NCBI RefSeq assembly: GCF_003691365.1
Contig: NZ_CP033087.1
Coordinates: 1-64,000, forward strand
Direction of reading: 5' to 3'
Length of the DNA: 64,000 bases
Origin: Commensalibacter melissae
GTDB lineage: Bacteria; Pseudomonadota; Alphaproteobacteria; Acetobacterales; Acetobacteraceae
A program made the position numbers and the translations under genes. The notes beneath the pieces were generated by a model that was not told where the DNA came from, did not search any database, and worked only from the letters and a program-made list of their open reading frames with translations. Positions 6,790-55,118 of this stretch are shown in pieces (within the stretch, counting starts at the first letter, position 1; every line of letters begins with the position of its first letter).

Positions 6790-7460
6790 GATTGTGCCAG
6801 CTGGTTGGCTTGATGTAGTTGGTTAATGATTTCTGTTTCAATTGTATCATAATTTTTCTTTGTGACCTCGATAGGTGTGCGACAAACCATTTTTCCTTTA
6901 CCGAACGGTAAGGGGATGATCAATTTATCCCAGTTGTTTAGGCGTATTGAGCTGCAATAAGCTCCGACAGGTACGATTTTAGTTTTGGCAAGTAAGGCAA
7001 GCTTGATCAATCCCGGATGTAAATGATGGCGTGGGCCTCTTGGCCCATCGGGCATGATGGCGATTAGATGACCTGCTTTGGATAATTTTAGAAGTTTGCG
7101 GAAAGCGGTCGCCCCACCTTTATCTTGTCCGTTTTTATTGGCAGATCCTTGTACTGTCCATATTCGCCAGGGATTAACAATTTTGCTGATGAGGCGTCCA
7201 TCATTATTTTTACTAATAAGTACATATAGGGTCAGATAAGGGTTCTGAGGTAAGGCCCACCACCATAAACGTGGTGAAAGGATCAGGGTTTCATGCCAAA
7301 AAATGACAAGGGCGGGTTGACCATCCCTACAAGTAAGTAAAGAGCGTGCTTGCGGGTCAATATCAAATTGCCAACATGTTGTTTGTAAGGTCAGTTTCAA
7401 ATAACCTCTTAAAATAAAGATTAAACTATTTTGAATTATTTTTTTTATGGAGGCAAACAT
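6786..7460 (-). CDS. DUF374 lysophospholipid-acyltransferase-like protein
   Basis: A 224-residue protein of the DUF374 family, distantly related to glycerolipid acyltransferases. Key segments are VIFWHETLILSPRL, SKNNDGRLIS, GATAFRKLLKL and IMPDGPRGPRHHLHPG. An N-terminal hydrophobic stretch suggests membrane association. The gene heads the waaA-lpxK group with a four-base overlap, a frequent arrangement in alphaproteobacteria, so a role in lipid A or outer-membrane lipid biogenesis is likely. The precise reaction is not established for the family. The ~150 bases upstream, before the next operon's end, should hold the operon promoter; I could not identify a convincing one. Confidence 0.88.
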   Translation of the reverse strand: MFASIKKIIQNSLIFILRGYLKLTLQTTCWQFDIDPQARSLLTCRDGQPALVIFWHETLILSPRLWWWALPQNPYLTLYVLISKNNDGRLISKIVNPWRIWTVQGSANKNGQDKGGATAFRKLLKLSKAGHLIAIMPDGPRGPRHHLHPGLIKLALLAKTKIVPVGAYCSSIRLNNWDKLIIPLPFGKGKMVCRTPIEVTKKNYDTIETEIINQLHQANQLAQS

Positions 7461-7609
7461 TTGAAAATGGATAAAATGCTGTTTGAAACTGATGGTGATA
7501 AAGATTTACATATGATTGATATAGGAAGCTATTGTACAATTTGAACAAGATTTTATTTTATTAGTTAGATAACAGTATATTTTAAAATATATCGTTACTT
7601 GTAAGAGAC

Positions 7610-35670: not shown

Positions 35671-37122
35671 TTAGAAATCTGTTCCCCCGACGGTCAGGCC
35701 GGAAAGTTTAAGGGATGGCTGTCCAACTCCAACCGGTACGCCTTGACCAGCCTTGCCGCAAGTTCCCACCCCTTTATCTAATTCAACTTCATTGCCAATC
35801 ATTGTGATTTTGGTAAGGGCATCTGGACCATTTCCAATCAGGGTGGCCCCTTTAACTGGATGGGTGACCTTTCCATTTTCTATCAGATACGCCTCTGAAG
35901 TAGAGAAGACAAATTTACCAGAGGTAATATCAACCTGACCACCGCCAAAATTGACAGCGTAAAGACCTTTTTTGGTGCTTTTAATCATATCGTCCAACGT
36001 ATCTTTTCCAGCCAGCATAAATGTATTGGTCATACGAGGAATTGGCGCACAGGCAAAAGATTCTCTGCGTCCATTTCCCGTTGATGGTTTATTCATCAGA
36101 CGGGCGTTCAAACGGTCATAAAGTAATCCTGTCAAAATGCCATCCTCGATCAGGTTTGTCCGTTGAGTTGGAGTTCCCTCATCATCAATATTAAGACTTC
36201 CCCGTCGTTCAGAGAGGGTGCCGTCATCAACGACATTAACCCCTGGAGCTGCAATTCTTTTACCCATTAAACCGGCAAAAGCAGAGGTTCCCTTGCGATT
36301 GAAATCACCTTCTAATCCGTGGCCGATAGCCTCATGTAACAAAATACCAGGCCATCCAGACCCGAGAACGACATCCATTTCACCGGCAGGTGCAGATTTA
36401 CTTTCCTGATTGATTAGGGATTGATGCAAAGCTTCATGAACAGCATTTTTCCAAATATTTTCCTGTGTAATATGATCATAACCATAGCGTCCACCACACC
36501 CATAGGAACCTATTTCTCGACGTCCATTTTTTTCTGTTATGATGGTAACATTAAGTCGAACCAGGGGACGGATGTCAGCAACACGGAACTGACTGGTCCG
36601 GATAATTTGAATGGCCTGCCATTCTGCCGATAGGGATGCGCTTACCTGAACGACATGAGGACTTTTTGAACGGGCATAAGCATCAATTTCATGAAGCAAA
36701 TGAGCCCGATCGGCAAATTTACCTTGATGAAGTGGGTTGTCAGGGTGATAAAGCTGATGATTGGTCAGGACAGGTTTATCACTGATTATAGATTCATGAT
36801 CTGATTTCAATTGGCTGACAGTTTCACTGGCACGTTTTAAGGCTTTATCACTTAATTCATTGGAAAAAGCGAATCCTGTTTGAGTATCCAAGACTGATCG
36901 TAGGCCAAATCCAGAAGTGATATCTGTTGTCGCGGTTCGGATGGTTCCATCATCAATACTTATCATTTCACTTTCACGATATTCAAGAAATAGTTCTCCA
37001 TCATCCATGGAAGAAAGGGTCTGATGAATGGATTTTTCTGTCTTATCCCGATCCAGCTGGGTTTTCTGTGGATTAAAAAATATAGAATCTGTCAGGGTCA
37101 AGGCATTGATGGGGTCAGTCAT
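35671..37122 (-). CDS. tldD: Metalloprotease TldD
   Basis: A 483-residue TldD-type subunit of the TldD/TldE zinc peptidase. The metal-binding HEAIGHGLEGDF motif (HExxxH) is present; GSGWPGILLHEAIG precedes it. C-terminal segments RRESFACAPIPRMTNTFM, GLYAVNFGGGQVDITSG and GTCGKAGQGVPVGVGQP are family hallmarks. TldD, with TldE (PmbA), degrades unfolded peptides and matures some ribosomal peptides. TldE is not in this window. The N-terminus includes SGFGLRSVLDTQTGFAFSNE. Confidence 0.96.
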   Translation of the reverse strand: MTDPINALTLTDSIFFNPQKTQLDRDKTEKSIHQTLSSMDDGELFLEYRESEMISIDDGTIRTATTDITSGFGLRSVLDTQTGFAFSNELSDKALKRASETVSQLKSDHESIISDKPVLTNHQLYHPDNPLHQGKFADRAHLLHEIDAYARSKSPHVVQVSASLSAEWQAIQIIRTSQFRVADIRPLVRLNVTIITEKNGRREIGSYGCGGRYGYDHITQENIWKNAVHEALHQSLINQESKSAPAGEMDVVLGSGWPGILLHEAIGHGLEGDFNRKGTSAFAGLMGKRIAAPGVNVVDDGTLSERRGSLNIDDEGTPTQRTNLIEDGILTGLLYDRLNARLMNKPSTGNGRRESFACAPIPRMTNTFMLAGKDTLDDMIKSTKKGLYAVNFGGGQVDITSGKFVFSTSEAYLIENGKVTHPVKGATLIGNGPDALTKITMIGNEVELDKGVGTCGKAGQGVPVGVGQPSLKLSGLTVGGTDF

Positions 37123-37162
37123 AAATGATAGCTTTCAAGAGGATCAAAATAAAAAATGTTAG

Positions 37163-38203
37163 TTATGATAATGATTTATTTTTACGCATATGATGTAGGG
37201 CAATCGTAACTGTTGTCAATAAAACGATTGCAAAGGCTTGATGAACGGTGCCTGCCCAGACAGGAACAACAAGCAATAATGTTGTAACCCCCAGGGCGTA
37301 TTGGATAAGGACAGCCCATCCCATTGCCATAAAGCTGTCCTTGGTCGCCTTGTCCAATGAGGATTTCAGACCTGTCATAACGGTTATTAGAATCATTATG
37401 CCCGTAAATGTTGCCAAGAGCCTATGATTGAATTGAATGGTTGAAATATTTTCAAACCAGTTTAACCAGAAAGGGGATAGTCTATTATAATCAGCAGGAA
37501 TCAGGTGGCCGTTCATTAGGGGAAAACTGTTAAAGGAATGACCCGCATGGGTTCCTGCAGTAAAACCACCGGCAACAATGGTGACTAGCAATAAAATGAA
37601 ATCAGTTTTCAATAAGGTTTTAATAAATTTTATGGCTGGATTTTGGGTCAGTGGATTGGGAACAGGGTGGCGTAATGAAAGGGCTGTCCATAAAATAGCG
37701 ATATAGAGAATAATGGCGCAGGCTAGATGCAAAACGAGACGGACCGGTTCAACCGCGGTACTGTTTGCTCTGAATCCAGAATGAACCATGAACCAGCCAA
37801 TACCGCCCTGTAATCCACCGAGAATAAAAAAAATGAACAGGCGCAGAGCCAGTTGTTTTGTGATCATTTTTTTATAAATAAACCAGATTAAGGGTAAAAT
37901 GAGAACCAGACCTATTAATCTTCCCAGAAAACGATGGCTCCATTCAGCCCAGAAAATCTGTTTAAATCCATCCAGTCCAAAACCATTGTTAAGAATTTGA
38001 TATTGTGGAATGGTTTTATAAAGATCGAATTCCCGAACCCATTCTGCGTGGCTTAGAGGAGGGATGATACCAGTGATTGGACGCCAATCCATGATGGACA
38101 GACCGGAACCCGTTAGTCGTGTATATCCCCCAAGGGCTATCATGCAAAGAAGCATAAAGCAGATGAGGAACAGCCACGTTGAAATTGATTTATTGTTTTG
38201 CAT
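37163..38203 (-). CDS. ctaA: Heme A synthase (COX15/CtaA)
   Basis: A 346-residue membrane enzyme with eight transmembrane segments that oxidises heme O to heme A for cytochrome aa3 oxidases. Landmarks: [21 protein letters not shown] near the N-terminus, [15 protein letters not shown] with a heme-ligand His, [16 protein letters not shown], and [37 protein letters not shown]. It is the COX15 type used by alphaproteobacteria. Together with the tldD gene on the same strand it may share a transcript (40-base gap). Confidence 0.95.
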
Positions 38204-38333
38204 GAGTAAAGAAATTCTAAATAAATGATAAAGGGTATCGTTTTAAAGAAAAGTGAGATATTGTGTTTTTTTAGTCCTATAAGAAGGTTTTTGCAAGTCA
38301 AGCCTTTCATAAGGTCAATAATTTAGTTGTGTT

Positions 38334-39029
38334 ATGAAAAGAAATAAAAATTTAACTCAATACAAAACACTAATTGGTCAAGTAATAAAACCATTATGTA
38401 TGGTTTTTGGAATTGTTATTGTTCTTTTACTTGCTCGTTATTTTCACGGCTTTGATTTGTTTTTAAATGATCATACGTTATTAAGGTGCGGGATAAAAGG
38501 TCCCCTGATCTTCTTATCCATTGCCATCATTATGTGCATGGTCGGTTTTCCAAGACAGCTTGTCTGTCTGACGGCTGGGGTGGTATACGGTTTTTGGTTG
38601 GGTATTTTTTACGCCACGATTGCGACTGTCATAGGAGCGTTATTGGCCTATAACTGGGCCCGGTGGCTGGGACATGAATGGGGGAAAAAATATCTTTCCC
38701 ATGCAAAACTAAAAAAAATTCATCATTTTATTCAAACAAACCCTTTTCATACCGTTCTTATCTGCCGTTTGATGCCTGTGGGTTCTTCCGTTCTGTTGAA
38801 TACCATGGCTGGTATAGTTGGTATTTCCGTTATGCCTTTTATCTGTGCGACTTTTCTGGGAAGCTTTCCACAAACGGTTGTTTTTGTTTTACTCGGTGGT
38901 GGAATTCGGATTGGCCATTTTGGGCAAATTACGTTAAGTTTACTTTTATTGGCTGTTTCAATACTTGCTGGTTTGATTTTAATGAAACGTTCTTTTAACA
39001 AAAAAGATGATTTATTATTGCCTGAATAA
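38334..39029 (+). CDS. TVP38/TMEM64 (DedA-like, SNARE-associated) membrane protein
   Basis: A 231-residue inner-membrane protein. About five or six hydrophobic segments are seen, with the family core FPRQLVCLTAGVVYGFWLG, ALLAYNWARWLG and LICRLMPVGSSVLLNTMAG and a Gly-rich VFVLLGGG near the end. DedA-superfamily proteins are linked to lipid scrambling and membrane potential in bacteria; function here is inferred only. It is divergent from ctaA, followed by the GST gene. Confidence 0.85.
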   Translation: MKRNKNLTQYKTLIGQVIKPLCMVFGIVIVLLLARYFHGFDLFLNDHTLLRCGIKGPLIFLSIAIIMCMVGFPRQLVCLTAGVVYGFWLGIFYATIATVIGALLAYNWARWLGHEWGKKYLSHAKLKKIHHFIQTNPFHTVLICRLMPVGSSVLLNTMAGIVGISVMPFICATFLGSFPQTVVFVLLGGGIRIGHFGQITLSLLLLAVSILAGLILMKRSFNKKDDLLLPE

Positions 39030-39076
39030 TTATAAAAGCATTATAATTTTCTCAGGATATTTCAAGGAGGCTATTG

Positions 39077-39700
39077 ATGTTAAAGCTTTATACAATTCCA
39101 GGCGCTTGCTCAACAGGATGTCATATTGCCCTATATTGGTGCAAAGCTGATTTTGACTTTGAAATTGTTGATCATGATGGTTTAAAAAAGGATGAATTTC
39201 TTAAATTGAATCCATCAGGTCAGGTGCCCGTATTGGTTGATGATCGGTTTGTGCTGACTGAAAATGTCGCCATCATGAATTATATTGCGGATTCTTTTCC
39301 ACAAGGGAAGCTGCTCGGAGATGGTAGTAAGCAACAAAGGGCAGAGGCTTTGCGTTGGTTGGCTTTCGTAAATTCCGATATTCATCCTGTATTCGGTTTG
39401 ATTTTTGGAGGACAACAAATCAGCGGCGATCAAAAAGTGATTGAAAGCCTTGATACTGCCGCTCGTAAAAAACTTCATAAATTATACGGTCAGGTTGATA
39501 AACAACTGGCGGAAAAGGAATGGATCGCAGGTTTCCGTAGTGTGGCAGATCCATATTTATTCATGACCTTGACCTGGGTTCAAAATCTAAAAATAGATAT
39601 TTCGAGTTATAAGAATCTGTTGCAGTTTTATATGAAAATGCAAAAAGATGATGGAGTTCTTGCTGTTTTCAAGGCGGAAGGTATTCCGAATTTCGTTTGA
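39077..39700 (+). CDS. Glutathione S-transferase family protein
   Basis: A 207-residue cytosolic GST. The thioredoxin-fold N-terminus is MLKLYTIPGACSTGCHIALY, with the beta-class catalytic Cys in GACS. KLNPSGQVPVLV and TENVAIMNYIADSFP complete the glutathione site, and an all-helical C-domain follows (~90-207). The ATG at 39077 is preferred over TTG 39074 because of AAGGAGG at 39064-39070 six bases upstream. Detoxification or redox role presumed. Confidence 0.9.
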   Translation: MLKLYTIPGACSTGCHIALYWCKADFDFEIVDHDGLKKDEFLKLNPSGQVPVLVDDRFVLTENVAIMNYIADSFPQGKLLGDGSKQQRAEALRWLAFVNSDIHPVFGLIFGGQQISGDQKVIESLDTAARKKLHKLYGQVDKQLAEKEWIAGFRSVADPYLFMTLTWVQNLKIDISSYKNLLQFYMKMQKDDGVLAVFKAEGIPNFV

Positions 39701-39714
39701 TGTCCAAATAAGGT

Positions 39715-39747
39715 ATGATGAAAATGAAATCTCATTTTCATCATTTT
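39715..39747. terminator. Hairpin between gst and thiM
   Basis: Perfect 13-base arms (39715-39727 and 39732-39744, ATGATGAAAATGA / TCATTTTCATCAT) around a 4-base loop, followed by TTT. It lies between convergent genes and is likely a terminator for both. Confidence 0.7.
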
Positions 39748-39765
39748 GGAAAATTATTTTATCCA

Positions 39766-40587
39766 TTATTTGACAAGATTAATTTTTGCATATTTTATAA
39801 TCTTTTCATCGTTCAATAGATAAAGCTCGTCAATTAATCTGATTTGCAGACTGCCGGGGGCGTTGATATGTTGCATAGCGATATCGGCGGCAATGCCAAT
39901 AAAAGCCATTGCCGCGGAACAAGCATATAGGGTGTTTTTTTCAACAGCCAGGCATGCTGCGGTGATGGCGGTTGCTGCACAACCAGATCCTGTTACTTTG
40001 GTTAAAAGAGGGTGGCTGTTTCTTACGGAGACAATCTCTTTTCCGTTGGTGATATAATCTGTTTGGCCACTGATTGACACAGTGGTTTTATAAGATAAGG
40101 CCAGTTGTTTAGCGGCTTCCAGTGCATCATGAGAGGAATCAAGACTATCCACTCCATGGCCCTGTGTTCGAGGAGATGTATTTTGATGATAATGGTAAAG
40201 ACTGATAATTTCTGACGCATTTCCTCGAATGGCATTGGGGAAATTCTGTAAAAGACTGAGCGTTGTTTTGGCTCGATAAAGAGAGGCACTAATGCCCACC
40301 GGATCGAGTATCCATGGAATGTTTTGCTGGTATGCGGTACGACTGGCCAACTGCATGGAGCGTAATTGGGGTGTTGATAAAGTCCCAATATTGATAACCA
40401 GAGCGTTGGATTTTTGAACGAATTCCTCAACTTCCTCCTCCGCATTGGCCATGGCGGGTGATGCGCCAAGCCCAAGTAAAATATTTGCGGTAAATTGGGT
40501 TGCAACCTGATTGGTTATATTGAGAATAAGTGGATTTTTTGCGCGTATGGCATGAAGAGTGGAAATTAGGATATCGGGTTCGATCAT
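39766..40587 (-). CDS. thiM: Hydroxyethylthiazole kinase
   Basis: A 273-residue ribokinase-like enzyme for thiazole salvage in thiamine synthesis. LILNITNQVATQFTANILLGLGASPAM at the N-terminus, the WILDPVGI segment, GNASEI and the catalytic-loop TGSGCAATAITAACLAV are present (longer stretches abbreviated). No thiE or thiD gene is adjacent, and no TPP-riboswitch-like sequence was seen in the ~130 bases upstream, so it appears monocistronic. The SDR gene is divergent from it. Confidence 0.94.
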   Translation of the reverse strand: MIEPDILISTLHAIRAKNPLILNITNQVATQFTANILLGLGASPAMANAEEEVEEFVQKSNALVINIGTLSTPQLRSMQLASRTAYQQNIPWILDPVGISASLYRAKTTLSLLQNFPNAIRGNASEIISLYHYHQNTSPRTQGHGVDSLDSSHDALEAAKQLALSYKTTVSISGQTDYITNGKEIVSVRNSHPLLTKVTGSGCAATAITAACLAVEKNTLYACSAAMAFIGIAADIAMQHINAPGSLQIRLIDELYLLNDEKIIKYAKINLVK

Positions 40588-40718
40588 GATAATATAAATA
40601 TTTTGTTTTATAGGTTATGGTTTATGAATGGAGATTATAGACTATTTCGTTGCAAAAGATATCTGCCTTACGTATTCTAGAAATAATAATGTCTTTTAAA
40701 ATTTGAGAGAATAATAAA

Positions 40719-41465
40719 GTGGATCTTGGTCTAAAAAATAAAAAAGTGCTTATTAGTGGCGGTTCCAAAGGAATTGGATTGGCGATTGCCCAAAAATTTA
40801 TTGATGAAGGTGCGTTTGTCAGTATTTGTGCCAGAAATCAGCAAGGTATCGATAAGGCTATTCTGCAATTGGGTGACCGGGCCATGGGCATGACTGTTGA
40901 TATTAACAAGGCGGATGAAGTTGAAAGATGGATCAAGGAAAGTCACAAAAAGATGGGTGGGCTTGATCATGTGGTGGCGAATGTAAGCGCTCTTGCCTCG
41001 GGACGGGATCTGCAAACCTGGAAAAAGGCGGTTGATACAGACCTGTTAGGTACTGTTGCCCTGGTTAACGAGACATTGCCTTATTTAACCAAACAGAAAA
41101 ACGGATCAATTGTTATCATATCCAGTGTTTCCGCTTCTGAAATAGACGTATTTGCTGAACCATATGGCGCCTTAAAGGCTGCCTTGAATCATTATGGCAA
41201 ATCGGTTGCACTAAGAGTTGCAGAACACAATGTAAGGGTTAATCTTGTTTCTCCAGGAACAATTTATTTTAAGGGAGGGATATGGGATCAAATTGAACGG
41301 GAGCAGCCTGAACTTTATAATACAGCCTTGAAGAATAACCCGTTAGGTCGTATGGGAACACCAGAGGATGTGGCCTCAACAGTTGTTTTTCTGACAAGTG
41401 AACAGGCAAGTTTTATTACCGGAAGCAACCTTGTTGTTGATGGTGGCATGACAAAACGCGTGTAA
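40719..41465 (+). CDS. SDR-family oxidoreductase
   Basis: A 248-residue classical SDR. LISGGSKGIGLAIAQKF is the NAD(P) site, NVSA replaces the usual NAG, VIISSVSASEIDVFAEP carries the Ser, and YGALKAALNHYGKSVALR carries the Tyr/Lys. C-terminal GSNLVVDGGMTKRV is typical. GTG start with GAGAGA 9 bases upstream. Substrate unknown; 3-ketoacyl-ACP reductase-like and polyol dehydrogenase activities both fit. It is followed by the HARE-HTH gene after ~160 bases. Confidence 0.85.
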   Translation: MDLGLKNKKVLISGGSKGIGLAIAQKFIDEGAFVSICARNQQGIDKAILQLGDRAMGMTVDINKADEVERWIKESHKKMGGLDHVVANVSALASGRDLQTWKKAVDTDLLGTVALVNETLPYLTKQKNGSIVIISSVSASEIDVFAEPYGALKAALNHYGKSVALRVAEHNVRVNLVSPGTIYFKGGIWDQIEREQPELYNTALKNNPLGRMGTPEDVASTVVFLTSEQASFITGSNLVVDGGMTKRV

Positions 41466-41627
41466 AATTATTGATATATTGCCTGTTCCAAGGCCTTTTT
41501 AAAATCAAATAGGCGGTATCGGGCAATTTAACCGGTTATATATATTATATTCTTTAAATAAGGTTAACCAATTATTTTAATATCATATGATAGAAATAAT
41601 GAATTTATCTGAACAATTTATAATATT

Positions 41628-42605
41628 ATGAAAAATTATACATTAATTCAGCAAGTTGTTTTATTTTTAAAAAATAATCCGCATAAACGATTTACCGCGC
41701 GTGAAATTGCAATCCAATTAGTTAAAATTTATCCTGATTATTATAAACAAAAAAGACTAAATAGCCAGCAGCGTTTTACCTCGGAAAATTCTTTTATTTC
41801 TCAAATTGTTGCTGAAATTGGTTCACGTATTAAAAGGTTAACACAATCAAATGCAGGAATATTGATTCAGGACCAACCTCGACCAAGAGTTTACGAATGG
41901 AAAGGTAATTCCAGGCTCAAGAGCAATTTTATAGATAAACTGAAAGATGAAGAAAATGCAGGTAAAGACATTTTAAATTTGCCATTAAAAAAGATGAATT
42001 ATACGGAAGCTGATCTTTATCCTTTATTGATTGAGTATCTTGGTACGGAATATAATTTAAAATGTGATAGGATCAATGAAAAATTTTCAAAAAAAGGTAA
42101 AGGGGAAAATGGCAATAAATGGTTGCATCCGGATATTGTTGCTTTGCAGGCAGTGACTGAAGACTGGAATAGTTTGGTTAAAACTTGTGTACAGTCAGGG
42201 GATGCTAAAATGGCTTATCTATGGTCTTTTGAAGTAAAAAAACAGATTTCCCGCTCAACAGTTCGTCAATATTTTTTTCAAGCCGTTAGTAATTCCAGTT
42301 GGGCAAATTACGGTTATCTGGTGAGTGCAAGCATTCCAGATGATGGAACGATGAATGAGCTGAGAATGTTGTCGGCTTTACATGGTATTGGGTTAATTAT
42401 ACTTAAAACAGATAATGTAATTGATAGTCAGATAATGATTCCTGCGGCATTTAGAGCAGAGGTGGATTGGTGCTCGGTAAACCGGTTGGTTGAAGAAAAT
42501 CCGGATATGAGATTGTTTATTCAAAAAGTTGCCAGTTATTATAAAAGCGGTTTGTTACAAAAAACTGGATGGAGTAATGATTTACTAAAAGTTGAGAGTA
42601 ATTAA
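41628..42605 (+). CDS. HARE-HTH / PD-(D/E)XK nuclease-like protein (COG2958, HrgA-like)
   Basis: A 325-residue protein. Residues ~1-90 form a HARE-type winged helix (RFTAREIAIQLVKIYPDYY, then SQIVAEIGSRIKRL). The C-terminal part (~115-325) matches the COG2958 family: DLYPLLIEYLGTEYNL, WLHPDIVALQ, WSFEVKKQISRSTVRQYFFQ, SNSSWANYGYLVSA, and SALHGIGLIIL. HPD...FEVKK has the Asp and ExK spacing of a PD-(D/E)XK nuclease fold. HrgA of Helicobacter pylori, reported at a restriction-modification locus, is in this group. No methyltransferase gene is adjacent, so it stands alone; a DNA-binding or defence role is inferred. Confidence 0.8.
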   Translation: MKNYTLIQQVVLFLKNNPHKRFTAREIAIQLVKIYPDYYKQKRLNSQQRFTSENSFISQIVAEIGSRIKRLTQSNAGILIQDQPRPRVYEWKGNSRLKSNFIDKLKDEENAGKDILNLPLKKMNYTEADLYPLLIEYLGTEYNLKCDRINEKFSKKGKGENGNKWLHPDIVALQAVTEDWNSLVKTCVQSGDAKMAYLWSFEVKKQISRSTVRQYFFQAVSNSSWANYGYLVSASIPDDGTMNELRMLSALHGIGLIILKTDNVIDSQIMIPAAFRAEVDWCSVNRLVEENPDMRLFIQKVASYYKSGLLQKTGWSNDLLKVESN

Positions 42606-42756
42606 ATATAAATTATTAATATATATTAATTTAACTATAAAAAACTGATTTAATTAAAATAATTCTTAAATAAATATATAAATATTTTCCAATATGTTAT
42701 AATTTGCAGAGTAAAAATGAATTTATTCAGTGTGTTATTCATATAAGAGATTTTTC

Positions 42757-43419
42757 ATGAATTTTTATATGTTGGTTTTTGTAAAATTTATTATCGGCTT
42801 TGCTGTTGTAATTTTTTATTTTAATCAGTCCGGCAAAACGCAGCTTTCCCAAATGACCCCTATTGATCTGATTGGAAATTTTATATTGGGTGGAATAATT
42901 GGGGGGGTTATTTATACAGATAGTATTTCTCTGTCTCGTTATATTGTTGTCTTGATAATTGGCACTCTATTAATGCATTTTCTAAATTATATTGCCAAGA
43001 AATTTGATGTTTTCCGTGCCTTGGCCTTGGGTAACACGATTGTTTTTATTAAAAACGGTTCCTTATTAATGGATAATATCCAGGATAAAAAAAATAAAAT
43101 TGATATTATCAATATTATGTCCAGCCTACATTCCAGAGGCATTGGTTCAATGCAGGAAATATATTATGCCCAAATTGAGCCTAATGGATCGTTGACTGTT
43201 AAAAATAAAGAGGAAAAGGATCCTTCCGTCATTTTAATCCTTGATAGCGAGATCAAGGATTGTCCATCCCATTTGTTGGATATAAGTCAAGATACGGTCC
43301 AGCATTTACTTGATAAATATTCCTTGAAACTGGAGGATGTTTATCTAGCCGAATACTACGATAAAAAGATCATGTTTGCTTTATATGACGGTAAAAGAAT
43401 AACTATTCCATTTTATTGA
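42757..43419 (+). CDS. DUF421 / YetF-like membrane protein
   Basis: A 220-residue protein. Three N-terminal transmembrane helices (~1-75) are followed by the DUF421 cytosolic domain with ALALGNTIVFIKNGSLLMDN and SRGIGSMQEIYYAQIEPNG. The ATG at 42757 was chosen over the upstream GTG at 42730 because AAGAGA at 42745-42750 is well placed. Function of the family is unclear. It stands between the HARE-HTH gene and the alpha-2-macroglobulin gene, all on the plus strand. Confidence 0.82.
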   Translation: MNFYMLVFVKFIIGFAVVIFYFNQSGKTQLSQMTPIDLIGNFILGGIIGGVIYTDSISLSRYIVVLIIGTLLMHFLNYIAKKFDVFRALALGNTIVFIKNGSLLMDNIQDKKNKIDIINIMSSLHSRGIGSMQEIYYAQIEPNGSLTVKNKEEKDPSVILILDSEIKDCPSHLLDISQDTVQHLLDKYSLKLEDVYLAEYYDKKIMFALYDGKRITIPFY

Positions 43420-43511
43420 GCATCTATAGTGCTATATAAATTAATTTGAATATTTAAGTTTTTGTTTTTTAGTTTATTTTTGAAAAATGTTTTATTTTAT
43501 TGGATTTTTAG

Positions 43512-46500
43512 ATGTTTGAAAAACAAAGGTTCTTTGCTTTTTTTATATGTTTATTTATATGTAGTTTTTTTTTAAATTCATTATCTGTCAAAACTGTTTA
43601 TTGCAACTCAAATGTTCAGAATTCGGGTAATGAACAAATTTTAAAGGTTGTTGATGTATCTGAAATAGACAGGGATGGTTGGGACTGTCTTGCGGTTACT
43701 TTTTCATCACCCCTGAATGAAAACCAGAACTTTGAAGAGATATTGCATCTTTTTGATGCAAAAAAAGGCAAGGTGGATGGCGCCTGGATTTTATCTGAAG
43801 ATCATCAGGAACTTATTTTTAATCATCTTGAGCCTAACCGGAAACTGGTTTTAACTGTTGATGCTGGATTAAAGGGTAAAGACGCAAAAATTCTCAGAAA
43901 AGAATATACGGCCAAAATCACAACAAATGATTTAAGTCCCAATATCAGCTTTGCCAGTCAGGGTTCTTTGTTTCCCGTAAGATTGGCCGAGGGTTTGCCT
44001 GTTATAAAATTGAATGTAAATCAGGCAAATGTTGAATTCTTCAGAATAAAAAATGACCAGCTTGTCAATTTTTTTGAAGATAAGGAATCTTCCTCAAGCT
44101 TGTCAAATGACATGATCTCGGCTTTGGTTGATAAGGCGGATCTGATATATACGGGTTCTTTTAAGCTAAATGTAGATAAAAATCATCGTCAGAAAATTTT
44201 ACTGCCGATTTCTTCCATCAAACCTTTACAAAAAAAGGGTGTTTATTTTGCGGTTATGCGTTCCGCGGGAATGTATAATTACAGTTATCCTGTTACAGTG
44301 TTTACGATTTCTGATATTGGCATTTCCGTACATCGTTATCAGGATAATGATCAGATCAGCGTTTTTACACAGTCTCTAGAAACGGGTGATGTCTTACCAA
44401 ACGTAAATATCAGTGCCTTGGATAAAAAAGGGCATATCATTGCGACAGCTTTTTCAGATAAGGACGGTTATGCAAATTTGACAAATATGTCAAAAGCTAG
44501 AATTTTGCTGGCAACACAAAATGGTCAAACATCCTTTATCCAATTAAAGTCTCCAGCTTTGGATTTATCAGATTTTAAAATTGATGGAGATATCCAGCAT
44601 GATTTACAGTTTTTCGTTTTTGGCCCCCGTGATTTGTATCGTCCGGGAGAAACCGTAATATTGAACGCTTTATTGAGGGATGCGGATGGGCAACCTGTTC
44701 AAAATATTCCAGTCAATGCTATTGTTTATAATGCAGAGGGAAAAAAGGCTCAAAATTTTGTTTGGAAAGCCTCAGAGACAGGATTTTATCAATATCAGTT
44801 AAAATTACCCGCCAATGCTGTAACAGGCAAATGGTCTGTCGTTGTGAAAGCGGGAAGGAAAGAATTGAATCAGTATCGATTTGCAGTTGAGGATTTTTTG
44901 CCTGAACGTATGGGTCTTACTTTACAATCGGAAAATCTGGAAAATTCGAAAAATAATGTGCCTCTGACCTCTCGGCAAGATTTGCATGTCAAGGTGAATG
45001 GCTGGTATCTGTATGGGGCGCCGGCCAGTCATAATCTTTTATCAGGTTCAATTACCATGCATTCATTGAGAAAAGCGGTTCCTCAATTAAAGGGATTTGA
45101 ATTTGGTGATAGTCAAGAAAAAGGCCTTGATAAACGCATGGATTTTGACGAGATTCATCTGGATCAGCTAGGTTATGGCCAAATTAAAATGACCAATCAA
45201 TGGCAAGGGATCAGATCACCTGTTCAATTGATTACCGAGGCCAGCCTGTTTGAAACCGGAGGACGTCCAGTGGTGAGACATTTGACGCAATTTGTATGGC
45301 CAGCCAAACAATTGGTTGGTATACGGCCCCTTTTTGATTCGGTTACCTCGCATGACAAGCCAATTCGATTTGAGGTTGTCATGGCTGATTTCGAAGGGCA
45401 TAAATTACCGGCAAAAAATTTAAAAGCAAGATTTATTCATGAACGTCATGATTATTATTGGACGTATTCTGATGATACAGGGTGGGACAGCCATTTTAAT
45501 AAGAAAGATGTTATTGAGGATGAACAGCTTTTAAACATAGGCCAAAACAAAACAGCGATGCTGACATTTCCTTCCAAAGATTGGGGATTCTATCGATTGG
45601 AAGTGTTCAATCCAGATACCGGTTTGACATCCAGTTATTCTTTTGAAACGGGGGCAGTTGAAGAAGCGGGTTCAGAAGAGAATTTGCGTCCCGATCAGGT
45701 TAAGGTCATGCTGGATAAAACAGCTTACAAAGCTGGCGATATTGCCCGAATCACTTTGACCCCTCCTTCTGATGGCAAGGGTTATTTGGCGGTAGAGTCA
45801 TCAGGTCAGCTATTATGGCGGCAATCTATTCAGGCTTCTGCCAAAGGTTCAAGTTTTACCCTTCCCATTAATTCAAAATGGTTACGTCATGATGTATATA
45901 TTACAACTTTGATTATCCGACCCGGTGACCGTAAGGTTGGCGCCACTCCAAAACGATCTGTGGGAATATTACACTTACCTCTTGATCGGCAGGATCGTAA
46001 GTTAAAACTTCAAATGAAAATGAATTCAAAAATCGAGCCTTTAACGGATCAGAAAGTTAAGGTCAAAGTTACGGATGCATATGGGAAACCTGTAAAGGAT
46101 GCCGAGGTTTTGTTATCCGCCGTGGATACAGGTGTCTTAAATATTACGGATTACAAAACTCCAGATCCTTTCAGGGCTTTCTTTGATCGCAAAGCTTATA
46201 ATGTTGATCAGTTAGATGTTTATGGCAAGTTAATCGAGGCAGGTCAAAACCCTTTGGCAAGTTTGGCTTTTGGTGGGGATGCAATGGCGAAGGGGGGGAA
46301 ACTGCCCGATACCAAGATCAAGATTGTTACGTTACAACCCAAGCCTATTCATGTGAATGATCAGGGTGAAGCCGAGATTTTAATTACTGTTCCAGATTTT
46401 AACGGCGAATTAAGAATTATGGGGCAAGTTTGGACAGCTGGTCAATTTGGTATGGCAGAAAATAAAATAACAGTTGCCGCACCTATTGTTGCCGAAATGT

Positions 46501-48401
46501 CCACACCACGTTTCCTGGCAGGGGGTGATGAAACGGTTTTGGCACTTGATCTTACTAACATGACCAGACAGTCACAGGAATTATCTGTGCGTTTCAAGAC
46601 AGAAGGATTTATTTTTGCAACGCGTTCTGGGGATCAAGCTGTTATATTGGCACCAAATGAACGGAAAACATTAAAAATTCCTGTCCAGGCAAAAACAGGA
46701 TCAGGAGAAGGAAAAATCAGGGTTGATGTTTCAGGAATTGTCTCCAACGGTAAAAAGCAATTATTGAGCCGTTCATGGTCAATTGGAACACGCCCGCCTT
46801 ATGCTGCTCAATTTATAATAGAACAGACTAAACTAAATAAAAAAAGTTGGCAGATATCACCATCAGTCTTGCATAATATCGGGATTTCAGGTCGTGAGGG
46901 GAGACTGAACATAAGTCCTTATCCACCCTTGAATTTATCCAGACAGATTGAGGATTTACAAACTTATCCCTATGAATGTGCCGAACAAACAACAAGTGGA
47001 ATTTATCCTTTCCTCTATGTAAATAAGGATATCTTAAAACAGCTTAATATTAAAAACGAGCTAACCGATCAACAGCGTCATGATGCGATTAATGCAGCGA
47101 TTTTCCATATATTAACGATGCAGCGTTCAAATGGGGGATTTGGGTTATGGAGCAGTGACAGCCCAGAAGAATATTGGTTAACCGTTTATATCACGGATTT
47201 TCTTATTCAGGCACGGGACCGGGGTTATATGATTCCTGAAGATGCCTTGCAAAATGCCTTAAAACGTTTGTTAATATATGTTCAAAACGGCAATGAGATT
47301 GACCCTTATTACAGTCGTGACTTTAATGAATCGCGTTTTACGGTTCAAGCCTATGCTGGATATGTATTGGCACGAACAAAACAGGTACCTTTAGCCGCAT
47401 TAAGAAATCTTTACAATCATCGTAAACAGGCACCATCAGGACTTTCTTTAATTCAATTGTCAGCAGCATTAAAGCTAATGGGAGATGAGGGACGTTCTGC
47501 ACAGACCTTAAATGAAGGTTTACATTATGGGCAACGTGTTCATGATTGGTGGATAGGAGATTATGGAAGTGATATTCGTGATAATGCGTTAATTCTTGCA
47601 CTTTTACAGGATAATCATTTGGTCAGTGATGACGTTGTTATACAAAGGCTGTTTGCTTTAAGTCATCAAATTGAAGATAAAATATATTTGTCTACACAGG
47701 AAAAGAATGCAATTTTTCTGGCAGGATATCGCTATGTTTCAAAATCCGCTAAAAACTGGAAGGTTGAGGTCGACGTGGCAGGGAATCATTATAACCTGAC
47801 AAACCAAAAATCTTTTTTGCAATTCAATGATCAGGAAATGAGACAGATCAATACGCTTCGCCTTGCCAACAAAACGGGAGATGTTGATCTATATCCAAAT
47901 CTCGGTTTATCCGGTTATCCGTTACAGGCTCCTGTACAGGTTCAGAAAAAGGAACTGAACATAGAAAGAGAATTTCTTGATATTTACGGTAATCCAGTGG
48001 ATTTGAAAAATGTCAAAACGGGTGATCTTATATTGGTTAGAATTAAGATATTTTCGTTTTCAAGAATGCATGATGCCTTGGTGGTTGATTTCCTGCCCGC
48101 TGGATTTGAGCTGGAAAATCAAGATCTTTCAAATGCTTCTGTCAATTTGGAAAATGCAGGGGAGGTAATTAAAAAATCTCTTGAAAAAATGCAGGAAGCA
48201 TCCATTCAACATCAAGAATATCGTGATGACCGTTATGTAGCCCAATTGGATCTTACAAATAAAACTGAACTGGTTTATTTGGTCCGTGCGGTGACACCTG
48301 GAAGGTATTACATACCATCGGCAACATTACAGTCGATGTATCAGCCAGGCCGGTTTGCAAGGACCAGTGGCAATATGACATTAATAGTTAAAGCACGTTA
48401 A
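43512..48401 (+). CDS. yfhM: Bacterial alpha-2-macroglobulin (YfhM-like)
   Basis: A 1629-residue secreted protein of the bacterial alpha-2-macroglobulin family. The signal peptide (1-32) has no canonical lipobox (the only nearby Cys is in TVYCNSN), so it may be soluble in the periplasm. MG-type beta domains fill the first ~900 residues (for example FVFGPRDLYRPGETV). The thioester motif ECAEQTTSG (CxEQ) is at about residue 1157, followed by the alpha-helical TED domain and a C-terminal MG domain. It traps proteases and protects the cell envelope. It is paired with pbpC downstream, a conserved combination. Confidence 0.94.
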   Translation: MFEKQRFFAFFICLFICSFFLNSLSVKTVYCNSNVQNSGNEQILKVVDVSEIDRDGWDCLAVTFSSPLNENQNFEEILHLFDAKKGKVDGAWILSEDHQELIFNHLEPNRKLVLTVDAGLKGKDAKILRKEYTAKITTNDLSPNISFASQGSLFPVRLAEGLPVIKLNVNQANVEFFRIKNDQLVNFFEDKESSSSLSNDMISALVDKADLIYTGSFKLNVDKNHRQKILLPISSIKPLQKKGVYFAVMRSAGMYNYSYPVTVFTISDIGISVHRYQDNDQISVFTQSLETGDVLPNVNISALDKKGHIIATAFSDKDGYANLTNMSKARILLATQNGQTSFIQLKSPALDLSDFKIDGDIQHDLQFFVFGPRDLYRPGETVILNALLRDADGQPVQNIPVNAIVYNAEGKKAQNFVWKASETGFYQYQLKLPANAVTGKWSVVVKAGRKELNQYRFAVEDFLPERMGLTLQSENLENSKNNVPLTSRQDLHVKVNGWYLYGAPASHNLLSGSITMHSLRKAVPQLKGFEFGDSQEKGLDKRMDFDEIHLDQLGYGQIKMTNQWQGIRSPVQLITEASLFETGGRPVVRHLTQFVWPAKQLVGIRPLFDSVTSHDKPIRFEVVMADFEGHKLPAKNLKARFIHERHDYYWTYSDDTGWDSHFNKKDVIEDEQLLNIGQNKTAMLTFPSKDWGFYRLEVFNPDTGLTSSYSFETGAVEEAGSEENLRPDQVKVMLDKTAYKAGDIARITLTPPSDGKGYLAVESSGQLLWRQSIQASAKGSSFTLPINSKWLRHDVYITTLIIRPGDRKVGATPKRSVGILHLPLDRQDRKLKLQMKMNSKIEPLTDQKVKVKVTDAYGKPVKDAEVLLSAVDTGVLNITDYKTPDPFRAFFDRKAYNVDQLDVYGKLIEAGQNPLASLAFGGDAMAKGGKLPDTKIKIVTLQPKPIHVNDQGEAEILITVPDFNGELRIMGQVWTAGQFGMAENKITVAAPIVAEMSTPRFLAGGDETVLALDLTNMTRQSQELSVRFKTEGFIFATRSGDQAVILAPNERKTLKIPVQAKTGSGEGKIRVDVSGIVSNGKKQLLSRSWSIGTRPPYAAQFIIEQTKLNKKSWQISPSVLHNIGISGREGRLNISPYPPLNLSRQIEDLQTYPYECAEQTTSGIYPFLYVNKDILKQLNIKNELTDQQRHDAINAAIFHILTMQRSNGGFGLWSSDSPEEYWLTVYITDFLIQARDRGYMIPEDALQNALKRLLIYVQNGNEIDPYYSRDFNESRFTVQAYAGYVLARTKQVPLAALRNLYNHRKQAPSGLSLIQLSAALKLMGDEGRSAQTLNEGLHYGQRVHDWWIGDYGSDIRDNALILALLQDNHLVSDDVVIQRLFALSHQIEDKIYLSTQEKNAIFLAGYRYVSKSAKNWKVEVDVAGNHYNLTNQKSFLQFNDQEMRQINTLRLANKTGDVDLYPNLGLSGYPLQAPVQVQKKELNIEREFLDIYGNPVDLKNVKTGDLILVRIKIFSFSRMHDALVVDFLPAGFELENQDLSNASVNLENAGEVIKKSLEKMQEASIQHQEYRDDRYVAQLDLTNKTELVYLVRAVTPGRYYIPSATLQSMYQPGRFARTSGNMTLIVKAR

Positions 48402-48425
48402 AAAATTAATAAAAAGGTCATAATC

Positions 48426-48467
48426 AGGTGTGCATCAATATATGATGGTGTACGCCTTATTTTTATT
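48426..48467 (+). terminator. Imperfect hairpin between yfhM and pbpC
   Basis: AGGTGTGCATCA at 48426 can pair, with a 3-base bulge, with TGATGGTGTACGCCT, followed by TTATTTTTATT. It may be an attenuator or partial terminator within the yfhM-pbpC pair. The pairing is imperfect. Confidence 0.4.
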
Positions 48468-48475
48468 AGAAATAA

Positions 48476-50818
48476 ATGGTGTATATAGTGCGTGTGATAG
48501 GTCAGATTTACCGAAAAGGGGTAATATTCTGTTTATTTATTTGTATTGGGTTATTTATAGCGGATAAAACCAACCCTCTTCCTTTACCAAATATCAGTTC
48601 TTCTCGTGTCGTTTTGGCAGAGGATGGAACGCCTTTATGGCGTTTTACCAATCAAAAAGGGGTCTGGCGTTATCCTGTTACCATCCAACAGGTTTCTCCA
48701 TATTATATTCAGGCTTTGTTAGCCTATGAAGATCGGTGGTTTTATCATCATCCCGGCATTAATCCTGTCGCTTTGGGCAGGGCTTTTGGACAAGATATTT
48801 ATCATCATCATATCGTATCGGGTGGTAGTACGCTCTCAATGCAGGTTGCCCGTATTGTTGATCCCTGTCCCCATACTTATTTGGGAAAAATTGGGCAGAT
48901 TTTCCGGGCGTTGCAACTTGAATGGCATTTGAATAAAGAACAGATTCTAACCATTTATCTAAATCATGTATCTTATGGGGGAATGGTAGAGGGTATTGCG
49001 GCGGCGAGTTGGACATATCTTGGTAAACCACCGGATCAACTTACCAAAGGAGAGGCAGCCTTGCTGGCTGTTCTACCACAAGCGCCCAGCCGTTTACGAC
49101 CAGATCGTTATCCTGAGCGTGCCAAGAAGGCCCGTGACAAAGTTCTGGAGCGGCTAGCTCAATTCAAGGTATGGTCAAAGAGGGATATTGAGGAAATTAA
49201 AGGGGAAAATGTTTTATTAAGTGAACGTCAGATACCACAATTGGCTCCCTTATTGGCGAGACGATTATCACTTCAGAACAAAGATGCAGTCATCCATAGC
49301 ACTATCAATATAGATATGCAACGTCATTTGGAGGAACTTCTTGAAAATTGGAAAAACCGTTTACCGCCTTATAATTCCGCTGCCATTTTGGTGGTGGATT
49401 CAGCGACAATGCAGGTTAAAGCCTATCTCGGCTCTGTAGATTTACAGGATAAACAGCGTTTTGGTTATGTGGATATGGTAACCGCTATCCGTTCACCCGG
49501 TTCAATATTAAAGCCTTTTCTTTATGGGTTGGCCATGGATGAAGGGCTTATCCATTCTGAATCCTTATTGCAGGATGTGCCAAGACAATCTGGTCATTAT
49601 AGGCCAGAGGATTTTTCTTCTTCATTTGTTGGACCCGTTTCAGTAAGCCAGGCATTGCGAAGATCACTTAATTTACCAGCCGTACAAGTGTTGGAAGTTT
49701 ATGGAGCCAGAAAATACTATGGCAAATTAACAGGTGCCGGTATTGGATTAAAACTGCCTCAAATGGTTGAACCAAATTTGGCAATTATTCTTGGCGGGAT
49801 TGGCACGTCTTTGGAAAATGTTGTTACAGCTTATAGCGCGTTCGCAAGAAAGGGAAAGGTTGCAATGTTACGTTTCAAGAATAATGGATCCATGAGTGAA
49901 CGGCCATTATTGTCTGAAGGTTCAGCCTGGGTTATTCGGAAAATTCTGGAAGGTGAAAGTCCATTGGACAGTAATTTTGATCGGCAGATTTTTCAGCAGG
50001 ATCATTTGGCATGGAAAACAGGGACAAGTTACGGATATAGGGATGCTTGGGCTGTTGGCGTAGGCAAACATTATATAATGGGGGTCTGGATTGGAAGACC
50101 TGATGGCACACCTGTGGCAGGCCAATATGGAATAGCTTCCGCAACCCCCTTATTATTTCAAGTATATGATATGGTCAGAAACCAAGCTTCACAGACGTTT
50201 TCATATAGTATTAAAGATCATGAGCCGGCAACAGTAAGCGTTGCACAGATATGTTGGCCATCTGGACAGATATTGCCTGATAGGGATCAAAATTGCCGAC
50301 AAAAAAGGACCGCATGGATTATAAACCATATAGTTCCACCCACTTTGGAAATGGCCGATCAACCGTTAGGAACGGGTGTCAGCCAAACGGTATGGATCAA
50401 TGAACGAGGATTTCAAGTATCGTCTGATTGTCCAGGAGCCATTGAAAAAAAAATTGATCTGTGGCCAATTGCACTTGAACCTTGGTTGCCCCTTACAGAA
50501 CAGCGTCACAATCGTCTGCCCACACAGGATTTATCCTGTCCCTCCTTATCTTTGATGGAATCTTCTTCCTTGTCCATTATAGGTGTAAAAAACGGAGATC
50601 ATTTACAGTTGCCTCCCAGTAATATGCATCCGTTAACTTTAAAATTATCTGCTCTTGGGGGGACAAAGAAAAAATGGTGGTTCCTAAATGGTTATCTTAT
50701 TCAGGAAACTGATGGAAATCAAAGTTTTGATCATGTTTTTCATAATCATGGAAAGCAACAATTGACGGTAATGGATGAAATGGGAAAAACGGCTCTTGCT
50801 GAATTTACGTTGAATTAA
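48476..50818 (+). CDS. pbpC: Penicillin-binding protein 1C
   Basis: A 780-residue bifunctional cell-wall synthase. Membrane anchor ~12-27; GT51 domain (~45-220) with ALLAYEDRWFYHHPG, GGSTLSMQVARI and LNHVSYGGMVEGI; transpeptidase domain with SxxK in SPGSILKPFLYG, SxN in RSLNLPA and KTG in WKTGTSYGYRDA. The C-terminal ~90 residues form a BiPBP_C domain. PbpC and alpha-2-macroglobulin are usually genetically linked and thought to repair walls after protease attack. The ATG at 48476 was used; weak RBS. Confidence 0.96.
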   Translation: MVYIVRVIGQIYRKGVIFCLFICIGLFIADKTNPLPLPNISSSRVVLAEDGTPLWRFTNQKGVWRYPVTIQQVSPYYIQALLAYEDRWFYHHPGINPVALGRAFGQDIYHHHIVSGGSTLSMQVARIVDPCPHTYLGKIGQIFRALQLEWHLNKEQILTIYLNHVSYGGMVEGIAAASWTYLGKPPDQLTKGEAALLAVLPQAPSRLRPDRYPERAKKARDKVLERLAQFKVWSKRDIEEIKGENVLLSERQIPQLAPLLARRLSLQNKDAVIHSTINIDMQRHLEELLENWKNRLPPYNSAAILVVDSATMQVKAYLGSVDLQDKQRFGYVDMVTAIRSPGSILKPFLYGLAMDEGLIHSESLLQDVPRQSGHYRPEDFSSSFVGPVSVSQALRRSLNLPAVQVLEVYGARKYYGKLTGAGIGLKLPQMVEPNLAIILGGIGTSLENVVTAYSAFARKGKVAMLRFKNNGSMSERPLLSEGSAWVIRKILEGESPLDSNFDRQIFQQDHLAWKTGTSYGYRDAWAVGVGKHYIMGVWIGRPDGTPVAGQYGIASATPLLFQVYDMVRNQASQTFSYSIKDHEPATVSVAQICWPSGQILPDRDQNCRQKRTAWIINHIVPPTLEMADQPLGTGVSQTVWINERGFQVSSDCPGAIEKKIDLWPIALEPWLPLTEQRHNRLPTQDLSCPSLSLMESSSLSIIGVKNGDHLQLPPSNMHPLTLKLSALGGTKKKWWFLNGYLIQETDGNQSFDHVFHNHGKQQLTVMDEMGKTALAEFTLN

Positions 50819-54006: not shown

Positions 54007-55050
54007 TTATTCGGGCATTTCAATTTGCAATTTTACATCAGTAGGTTGTGCTGATGCGGCCCGTTCAAAAGCCTCGATACTTTTTGAGAATGGATAAACT
54101 CCAGAAATTAATGGCTTGATATCAATCTTTCCAGAAGCAATCAGATTAATGGTCCGGTCATAAACATGTGCATATCGAAAGATTGTTTCCATATGTATTT
54201 CCTTTGCTTGTGCAGTAACAAGATCAAAGGGGATCTTGTCAACGGGCATCCCTACAAATACTATGGTTCCACCAGGGCGGACACAGGCCAATACGGTGTC
54301 ATAAGCGGAGGGATGTCCTGAAGCCTCAAAAACGACATCTGCCCCCCAGTCTTTACCGCATTCCGCCTTGACTCTTTCCTCTACGGATTCATTTTTCAAA
54401 TTAATTGGGATAATGCCATGATATTGTTTGGCAATATCCAGTTTGGGTTGAGCAAGATCAGAGATGAAAACCTTGCTTGCGCCAGAGGCAAGTGCGGCAA
54501 GTGCGGTCAGAATACCAATTGGACCACATCCTGTCACTAAACAGATATCGCCAGGTTTTAATCGGGCTTTTACGGCAGCCTGAACGCCAATGGCAAGAGG
54601 TTCAACAAAGGCACCTTCCTCGAAAGATACGTTGTCGGGCAGTTTAAATGTAAAAGCAGCGGGATGTACCACCGTTTCCGTTAAGCATCCATGAACGGGT
54701 GGGGTTGCCCAGAACACGACGTCAGGATCAACATTGTAAATACCGAGTTTTGTTGCGCGTGAGTGTGGATTGGGTATGCCGGGCTCCATACATACACGAT
54801 CCCCAACCTTTAAATTTTCAACATTTTTGCCTGTCTCAATAACAATACCAGAAGCCTCGTGCCCGAGCACCATTGGTTGATTTACGATAAAAGGGCCAAT
54901 TTTTCCATGTGTGTAGTAATGTACATCACTTCCACAAATACCAACATTACGTATTTTTATTTTAACGTCATTATCCCCTACTGTAGAGGGTAAATCAATG
55001 TTACGGATACTTAATTTGCCTTTTTCTTCAAGTACAAGAGCTTGAGCCAT
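54007..55050 (-). CDS. Zinc-dependent polyol dehydrogenase, xylitol-dehydrogenase-like
   Basis: A 347-residue MDR-family dehydrogenase. Catalytic zinc ligands are in [10 protein letters not shown] and MVLGHEASG, with the Glu of FVEPLAIGV. The NAD-binding Rossmann motif is [15 protein letters not shown]. It resembles xylitol/sorbitol dehydrogenases. The four-Cys structural zinc lobe is missing: the region reads [18 protein letters not shown], as in the known acetic acid bacterial xylitol dehydrogenase type. The ATG at 55050 with AAGGA upstream was chosen over an earlier in-frame start. Likely oxidises a polyol to a ketose. Confidence 0.88.
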
Positions 55051-55118
55051 GAAATGTTCCTTACTGGAATAAACATATAAAATACACAATTATGTTACCA
55101 ATATTCCGTAAGTATGAA

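Follow-up and report, generated by a model that had tools for sequence, protein, structure and literature searches.

The name hrgA reportedly goes back to Ando et al. in 2002. In some strains of Helicobacter pylori, hrgA takes the place of hpyIIIR (PMC4687069), and in Campylobacter it flanks a putative type II system (PMC4615327). In Acinetobacter baumannii AB031, a solitary hrgA lies beside glyS (PMC6563999). No activity of HrgA is reported in the passages of the literature that were examined, and a search of a partial literature collection turned up no paper in which HrgA is a standard component of type I operons. Two other kinds of protein are close in architecture. DpnI is a type IV enzyme with a winged helix and a PD-(D/E)XK domain (PMC11037411), and HARE-REase fusions have been proposed to discriminate modification (PMC10853773).

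We analyzed an hrgA-family gene of Commensalibacter melissae. It lies in the window, which is the stretch of 64,000 nucleotides at positions 1 to 64,000 of contig NZ_CP033087.1. A sequence-only reading of the window had pointed to a 325-residue ORF, with no methyltransferase or other defense gene beside it, as a fresh defense candidate. The ORF is as claimed, with an ATG start on the + strand, but the candidate is not fresh: both hrgA at restriction loci and the solitary hrgA of A. baumannii were already described in the papers above. The protein is of a known kind; what sets it apart is that HrgA has persisted here on its own for a long time, with its nuclease residues preserved. The gene and its immediate neighbors are:

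41628..42605, + strand: the hrgA-family ORF (ATG start, 325 amino acids, stop codon counted in)
40719..41465, + strand: an SDR-family dehydrogenase, which adjoins hrgA upstream in 7 of 9 genomes of the genus
42757..43419, + strand: a DUF421/YetF membrane protein, the downstream neighbor of hrgA in the window, in another genome of the species (G122), and in the closest sister species (G155)

The hrgA ORF is intact and is present in one copy in the 2.02 Mb genome (two contigs). Its GC content is 0.335, versus 0.379 for the window. The nine ORFs closest to it span 35671 to 50818 and all belong to metabolic or envelope families (TldD/PmbA, CtaA, VTT, GST, hydroxyethylthiazole kinase, SDR, DUF421/YetF, bacterial alpha-2-macroglobulin, and penicillin-binding protein). 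None of these nine is a restriction or modification gene, and reference proteins for type I systems (HsdM, HsdS, and HsdR) gave zero matches in the window, so the gene does not belong to a type I operon here. To that extent, the claim that no methyltransferase or defense gene adjoins it is supported. A scan for promoter-like sites found 9, versus 9.6 expected, which is the chance level, and the same scan found no terminator-like site. Elsewhere in the window, PADLOC matches 54007-55089 weakly to mad2 (24.7 bits).

In a tblastn search against plasmids, 27 records matched, the best being a gene annotated as an HrgA protein, with 46% identity over 98%. Eleven of the 27 are annotated as HrgA. Twelve span 80% or more of the query, and these comprise nine annotated as HrgA, one hypothetical protein, and two unannotated matches. 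Judged by its full-length similarity to proteins with this name, the window protein belongs to the HrgA family, and the annotated names bear out the relationship that had been claimed. Pfam scored the protein below every cut-off (the two matches, with E = 0.11 and 0.13, fell far short). NCBIfam and PADLOC gave no match to it at E ≤ 1, and PADLOC on 74 family members gave three matches to single members (E = 0.003-0.004). Among PDB sequences there was none at E ≤ 1 for the protein, and a profile gave rows at chance level. PHROGs gave one weak family of unknown function (E = 0.045 over 23 residues), and a search of a phage collection gave no match. When the single protein was the query of a genomic search, 43 stretches fitted the pattern and 0 were confirmed. 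With a 10-row alignment as the query, at least 546 genomic stretches were found to encode relatives, of which the best 80 were kept. HrgA relatives are also encoded by 63 viral contigs (L098-L160). The 74-row alignment used below joins the window protein to 73 relatives, out of 114 that passed a length filter.

An AlphaFold model made from this alignment has a mean pLDDT of 88.8 and a pTM of 0.77. In this model, the C-terminal half of the protein takes a PD-(D/E)XK nuclease fold. The parts of the protein are:

41643..41900, + strand: N-terminal winged-helix domain, residues 6-91, with an extra helix at 36-45 (AlphaFold model; block pLDDT of 86-96 over residues 1-90)
41901..41993, + strand: variable linker, residues 92-122 (pLDDT of 53-67 over the blocks for 91-120)
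41994..42467, + strand: PD-(D/E)XK nuclease-fold domain, residues 123-280 (AlphaFold model, structural comparison, and highest conservation)
42006..42008, + strand: codon of E127, an acidic residue of the nuclease domain's first helix (invariant, 74/74)
42132..42134, + strand: codon of D169, the D of the PD motif (74/74)
42231..42239, + strand: codons of E202-V203-K204, the (D/E)XK motif (E and K 74/74)
42279..42281, + strand: codon of Q218, within FFQ(A/S/T)VSN (74/74)

The modeled nuclease domain is alpha/beta, with a helix at 127-142 and strands at 170-175, 196-206, and 228-235. Structure prediction had been suggested as the check on a nuclease fold, and in a structural comparison (VIA) the top rows listed are those of the restriction enzyme PaqCI. 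Residues 124-276 match PaqCI chain 8epx_D with Z = 9.7 (rmsd 3.1, 129 aligned), and a second PaqCI structure, 8em1_A, has Z = 9.8 (rmsd 3.5, 140 aligned). The uncharacterized protein SPO1766 (3dnx) has Z = 9.2 (rmsd 3.9, 130 aligned). Below Z = 8, where a match may reflect just a common arrangement, are a Pyrococcus repair endonuclease (7.9), AF1548, whose function is unknown (7.9), EndoMS (7.6), and the modification-dependent nucleases AspBHI (7.1) and MspJI (6.5). Foldseek on the model gave nothing at E ≤ 0.001; its top row was SPO1766 (3dnx), printed as 1.0e-03, and MspJI was at 0.043.

Five residues of this domain (E127, D169, E202, K204, and Q218) are identical in all 74 aligned rows. A caveat is that Q218, along with S221-W225, falls inside the peptide patterns used to select relatives. 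D169 falls inside one pattern, for viral relatives alone, and E127, E202, and K204 fall in none. The motif that had been noticed in the sequence (HPD...FEVKK, with D169 and E202-V-K204) is thus present and is conserved beyond chance. When the four most distant rows, at the end of the alignment, are set aside, the mean identity of the remaining 69 relatives (of 73) to the window protein is 0.528 in the nuclease domain, 0.35 in the winged helix, 0.39 in the tail, and 0.067 in the linker (residues 96-122). Given the modeled fold and the conserved motif, it is likely that the protein cuts DNA.

Such a protein could be a housekeeping nuclease for DNA repair or recombination instead of a defense protein. 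The matches of the nuclease domain to EndoMS and to the Pyrococcus repair endonuclease point that way, as does the vertical retention of hrgA at one site, which we describe below. But we consider this quite unlikely, because the distribution of hrgA is patchy. A protein search found it in 3 of 150 genomes sampled from the family, two of which are of this species (genomes G150-G155 are outside the sample), and a profile search found it in 15 of 385 genomes sampled from the class, including the two of this species. Also, relatives are often found in restriction loci, plasmids, and viral contigs, and the gene was lost repeatedly within the genus.

The N-terminal domain had been called a HARE winged helix. 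The winged helix is upheld by the model, but the HARE label is not upheld by Pfam or by profile comparison. In structural comparison, the domain matches LACTB2 (Z = 8.1, rmsd 2.2, 70 aligned) and the winged helices of forkhead, Z-alpha, and Fur proteins (Z of about 6.5-7.2); no HARE structure is among the 50 rows listed. Pfam's HARE-HTH family (PF05066) does not match the window protein at E ≤ 1, and the two of 74 aligned members that it matches at E ≤ 0.01 do not include it. When we compared window-type N-termini (22 rows) to those of more remote HrgA relatives (10 rows, which include a Helicobacter plasmid copy and are not Pfam-verified HARE domains), hhalign gave a probability of 0.5%. On the other hand, the HARE topology is described, in PMC11037411, as having an extra helix inside the HTH, and in our model the extra helix at 36-45 sits between the HTH helices at 24-34 and 53-66, so the domain may be a remote relative of HARE. 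(Forkhead domains fit this arrangement too.) From these comparisons, it seems that the N-terminus was exchanged or diverged past recognition and that the nuclease domain is what HrgA relatives have in common.

Among the best 80 of at least 546 genomic loci, 51 are well flanked (6 kb or more to either side of hrgA). A type I component lies within 8 kb in 26 of these 51, and all three components are present in 21 of the 26; the other 25 have none. (These shares come with no random-gene baseline, and the type I reference set was drawn from the same loci, so divergent systems may be missed.) Type I components also occur at 5 of 9 well-flanked plasmid loci and in 18 of 25 well-flanked viral contigs. 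Without the flank filter, the counts are 35 of the best 80 genomic loci, 5 of 11 plasmids (settings were examined for 11 of the 27 matching records), and 31 of 63 viral contigs. At 9 of the best 80 genomic loci, hrgA has hsdS as its direct upstream neighbor and hsdR as its direct downstream neighbor, on the same strand. Annotated plasmids of Proteus and Vibrio rotiferianus have the order M-S-hrgA-R, a Shewanella plasmid has S-ATPase-TPR-hrgA-R, and a V. alginolyticus plasmid has R-SprT-hrgA. In two genomic stretches (L068:7811-9931 and L095:939-2984), brxL is directly upstream of hrgA, so HrgA joins BREX loci too. In another (L056), hrgA is preceded by a DpnII gene. A relative on an Escherichia marmotae plasmid (L007:10001-10924) is interrupted by an in-frame stop, and an hsdR-like match follows it directly. 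Some viral relatives adjoin lysis- or tail-like genes, as named from reading of the sequences, and prophages may carry the hrgA cassette.

For the 25 loci without a type I component, we scanned 92 of 148 candidate neighbor ORFs. Among the families listed (25/93 and 25/124), the neighbors include a few proteins from BREX, type II, or type III systems and many housekeeping proteins. One solitary hrgA (L025) is near glyS, and the same cluster of neighbors recurs at four other loci (L028, L035, L054, and L059). In Rodentibacter (L037:9326-11619), hrgA is flanked by a glutamine amidotransferase on one side and a histidine-biosynthesis gene on the other, with gaps of 16 and 18 bases; L039 has the same setting, as inferred from the matching lengths of its neighbors. 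The solitary members near glyS or near the histidine-biosynthesis gene have operon-like surroundings. In other genomes of the class (11 stretches from 10 genomes), type I genes are beside hrgA in just one stretch, L203.

On a quick tree with 86 rows, of which 67 carry a label for their setting, there are at least 12 changes of label, compared to a mean of 22 for shuffled labels (0 of 500 shuffles were as low), and 4 of these changes are forced by strong branches. By this tree, the type I or solitary state switches, yet it is inherited for stretches. (The window protein is a long branch whose placement is unsure.) Because many relatives are in restriction-system settings, a defense role, as had been proposed for the window protein, is likely.

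The type I loci could also mean that HrgA is an accessory subunit that tunes restriction systems, type I above all, and that in this host it acts in trans with another system. This would account for the loci and annotated plasmids with hrgA between hsdS and hsdR, and potential partners do exist: the host genome encodes a restriction-like protein in a single chain (at L171) and, at L230, a pair of the type III-like kind. We think this is unlikely, though, given that about half of the well-flanked loci (25 of 51, from the best 80 of at least 546) lack type I components and many have housekeeping neighbors, that type I genes accompany just 1 of the 11 stretches from the class, that the host genome lacks an SWI2_SNF2 HsdR domain, and that the solitary state was kept across the genus.

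This last point comes from a profile search of nine genomes from the genus, which found hrgA in seven. The gene is intact in the window genome and in G150, G151, G152, and G153; the proteins from those four are 48-53% identical to the window protein, and in all four genomes hrgA adjoins the same SDR gene. In G122, another genome of the species, hrgA is interrupted at residue 81 by an in-frame stop. In G155, hrgA is at the same site but has many indels and stops, whereas the alignments of SDR and DUF421 are free of gaps and those gaps that occur in thiM are all in frame; the downstream alpha-2-macroglobulin (A2M) gene of G155 is decayed by frameshifts too (L173, about 5350-7501). In G040, the downstream neighbor comes directly after a remnant of thiM, so SDR and hrgA were probably lost in one deletion, and in G154 there was no match to hrgA or SDR. 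Overall, comparison of these genomes indicates that a solitary hrgA is ancestral in the genus.

Two other accounts of the locus were considered and rejected. The absence of hrgA at other DUF421 loci had suggested a recent insertion in this species, but in those genomes hrgA is beside the SDR gene. Mutual dependence of SDR and hrgA had been suggested by their being together in seven of seven genomes, with neither in the other two. However, SDR is intact where hrgA is broken, and a probable single deletion of both in G040 also counts against dependence. There is probably no functional link between the two.

The solitary gene evolves under protein-level selection, as judged from dN/dS, although dS is high in all comparisons (at least 1.3 in the computed hrgA pairs, which is near saturation), so the ratios are rough. 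By the Nei-Gojobori method, dN/dS is 0.10-0.13 among the four sisters (5 of 6 pairs, one being saturated) and 0.18-0.24 between the window genome and the sisters (3 of 4 pairs, one being saturated). For SDR, it is 0.05-0.14 in the 8 of 10 pairs that allowed a computation; for thiM, just 2 of 6 pairs did. At amino-acid-changing sites, hrgA differs more than SDR does in 10 of 10 pairs. The pattern of loss in the genus (a stop, decay, an apparent deletion, and an absence) resembles that of accessory defense genes.

Could the gene instead be a dying relic in this strain, with no present function? The stop in G122 fits with this, as does the decay in G155 (where A2M decays alongside), and the ratios for the window copy exceed those among the four sisters. 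But the window copy is full length, it has all five motif residues, and its dN/dS is under 0.25, so we consider a relic to be highly improbable.

We also examined the other restriction and methylase genes of the host genome. (Beyond Pfam matches, the names given here are our reading of the sequences.) No SWI2_SNF2 HsdR domain was found in it. At L171:5848-10827 (G000:C1:1990847-1995826), there is a single-chain protein of 1659 amino acids with a Pfam match to N6_Mtase; by our reading, it has nuclease and helicase motifs and resembles the single-polypeptide type I (ISP) restriction enzymes. At L230:4635-9234, there is a type III-like pair, with a methylase of 647 amino acids and a helicase-like protein of 894 amino acids. 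A lone N6/N4 methylase of 283 amino acids lies amid apparent housekeeping genes (L229:4641-5492), a third N6/N4 methylase is in a frame of 378 amino acids, and one Mrr_cat ORF is distant from hrgA. The idea that the window came from Zymomonas and that the hrgA-family gene was its mrr (ZMO0028) was dropped: pieces of two published primers for the flanks of mrr have no counterpart in the window with 1 or 2 mismatches allowed, and one of them has no exact match in the genome.

The lone methylase of 283 amino acids is a possible partner of hrgA in trans. Together, they would form a split type II system in which the hrgA product cuts an unmodified site and the methylase protects the host. Orphan methylases are common, though, and these two genes are unlinked, so we think that such a split system is very unlikely.

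Instead, we propose that the hrgA product is a stand-alone restriction nuclease that spares its host in a type IV-like manner, a reading to which we give about an even chance. The winged helix would bind duplex DNA. The PD-(D/E)XK domain would cut it; D169 and E202 would hold the metal ions, assisted by K204 and Q218. Because there is no methylase beside hrgA, host DNA must be protected from the enzyme in some other way. Most simply, the winged helix would recognize a modification or structure that is found on foreign DNA and not on the host's. This self-sparing by reading of modification, without a methylase, is the weakest step of the proposal. The host has three N6/N4 methylases, besides the single-chain protein that includes a methylase domain. 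A general reader of adenine methylation would thus harm its own cell, and a type IV-like enzyme would need to read a narrower or different modification. On this view, a cassette that supplements type I and BREX loci in other bacteria occurs here as a single gene.

The architecture, the modeled fold, the conserved motif, the settings, and the long solitary retention under selection are what we established directly. From them, we infer that the protein cuts DNA, takes part in defense, and depends on modification; its role in restricting foreign DNA in particular is drawn from the restriction-system settings. Its long solitary retention at one chromosomal spot in a small genus suggests that it can work alone against foreign DNA. 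Against this, neither the other genome of the species nor that of the closest sister species has an intact hrgA.

More broadly, HrgA-type proteins might be widespread single-gene restriction enzymes with their own, non-HARE winged-helix sensor that were also recruited as backup nucleases in type I and BREX loci, where they would catch phages that escape by modification. We offer this generalization tentatively. If HrgA is an independent enzyme, that would account for the same cassette being bolted onto both type I and BREX loci, and a lineage with a long-solitary hrgA would be a clean test of HrgA as an enzyme in its own right.

How does the window protein compare to the known systems? Its C-terminal domain is homologous to that of HrgA from H. 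pylori and Campylobacter (the hpyIII locus). The Helicobacter plasmid copies are about 33% identical to it over this domain, and one is 25-26% identical over the full alignment; its N-terminal domain cannot be aligned, at the profile level, with the set that includes the Helicobacter plasmid copy. In H. pylori, hrgA is described as lying next to a methylase, whereas the window's hrgA has none. The hrgA of A. baumannii AB031 is likewise solitary and without a modification system, and its glyS setting is also seen in L025 (PMC6563999). However, the A. baumannii gene is at another site, and it is described there as rare and possibly acquired by transfer, while here the gene is common to much of the genus. 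Like the HARE-HTH + REase proteins that Dnd and BREX loci encode (PMC10853773, PMC12839542), the window protein has an N-terminal HTH and a REase domain, and some of its relatives are also beside brxL. Unlike those proteins, it has no Pfam match to HARE-HTH. Finally, DpnI-like enzymes have the same two domains in one chain and do not need a cognate methylase (PMC11037411). The winged helix comes first in the window protein, unlike in DpnI-like fusions.
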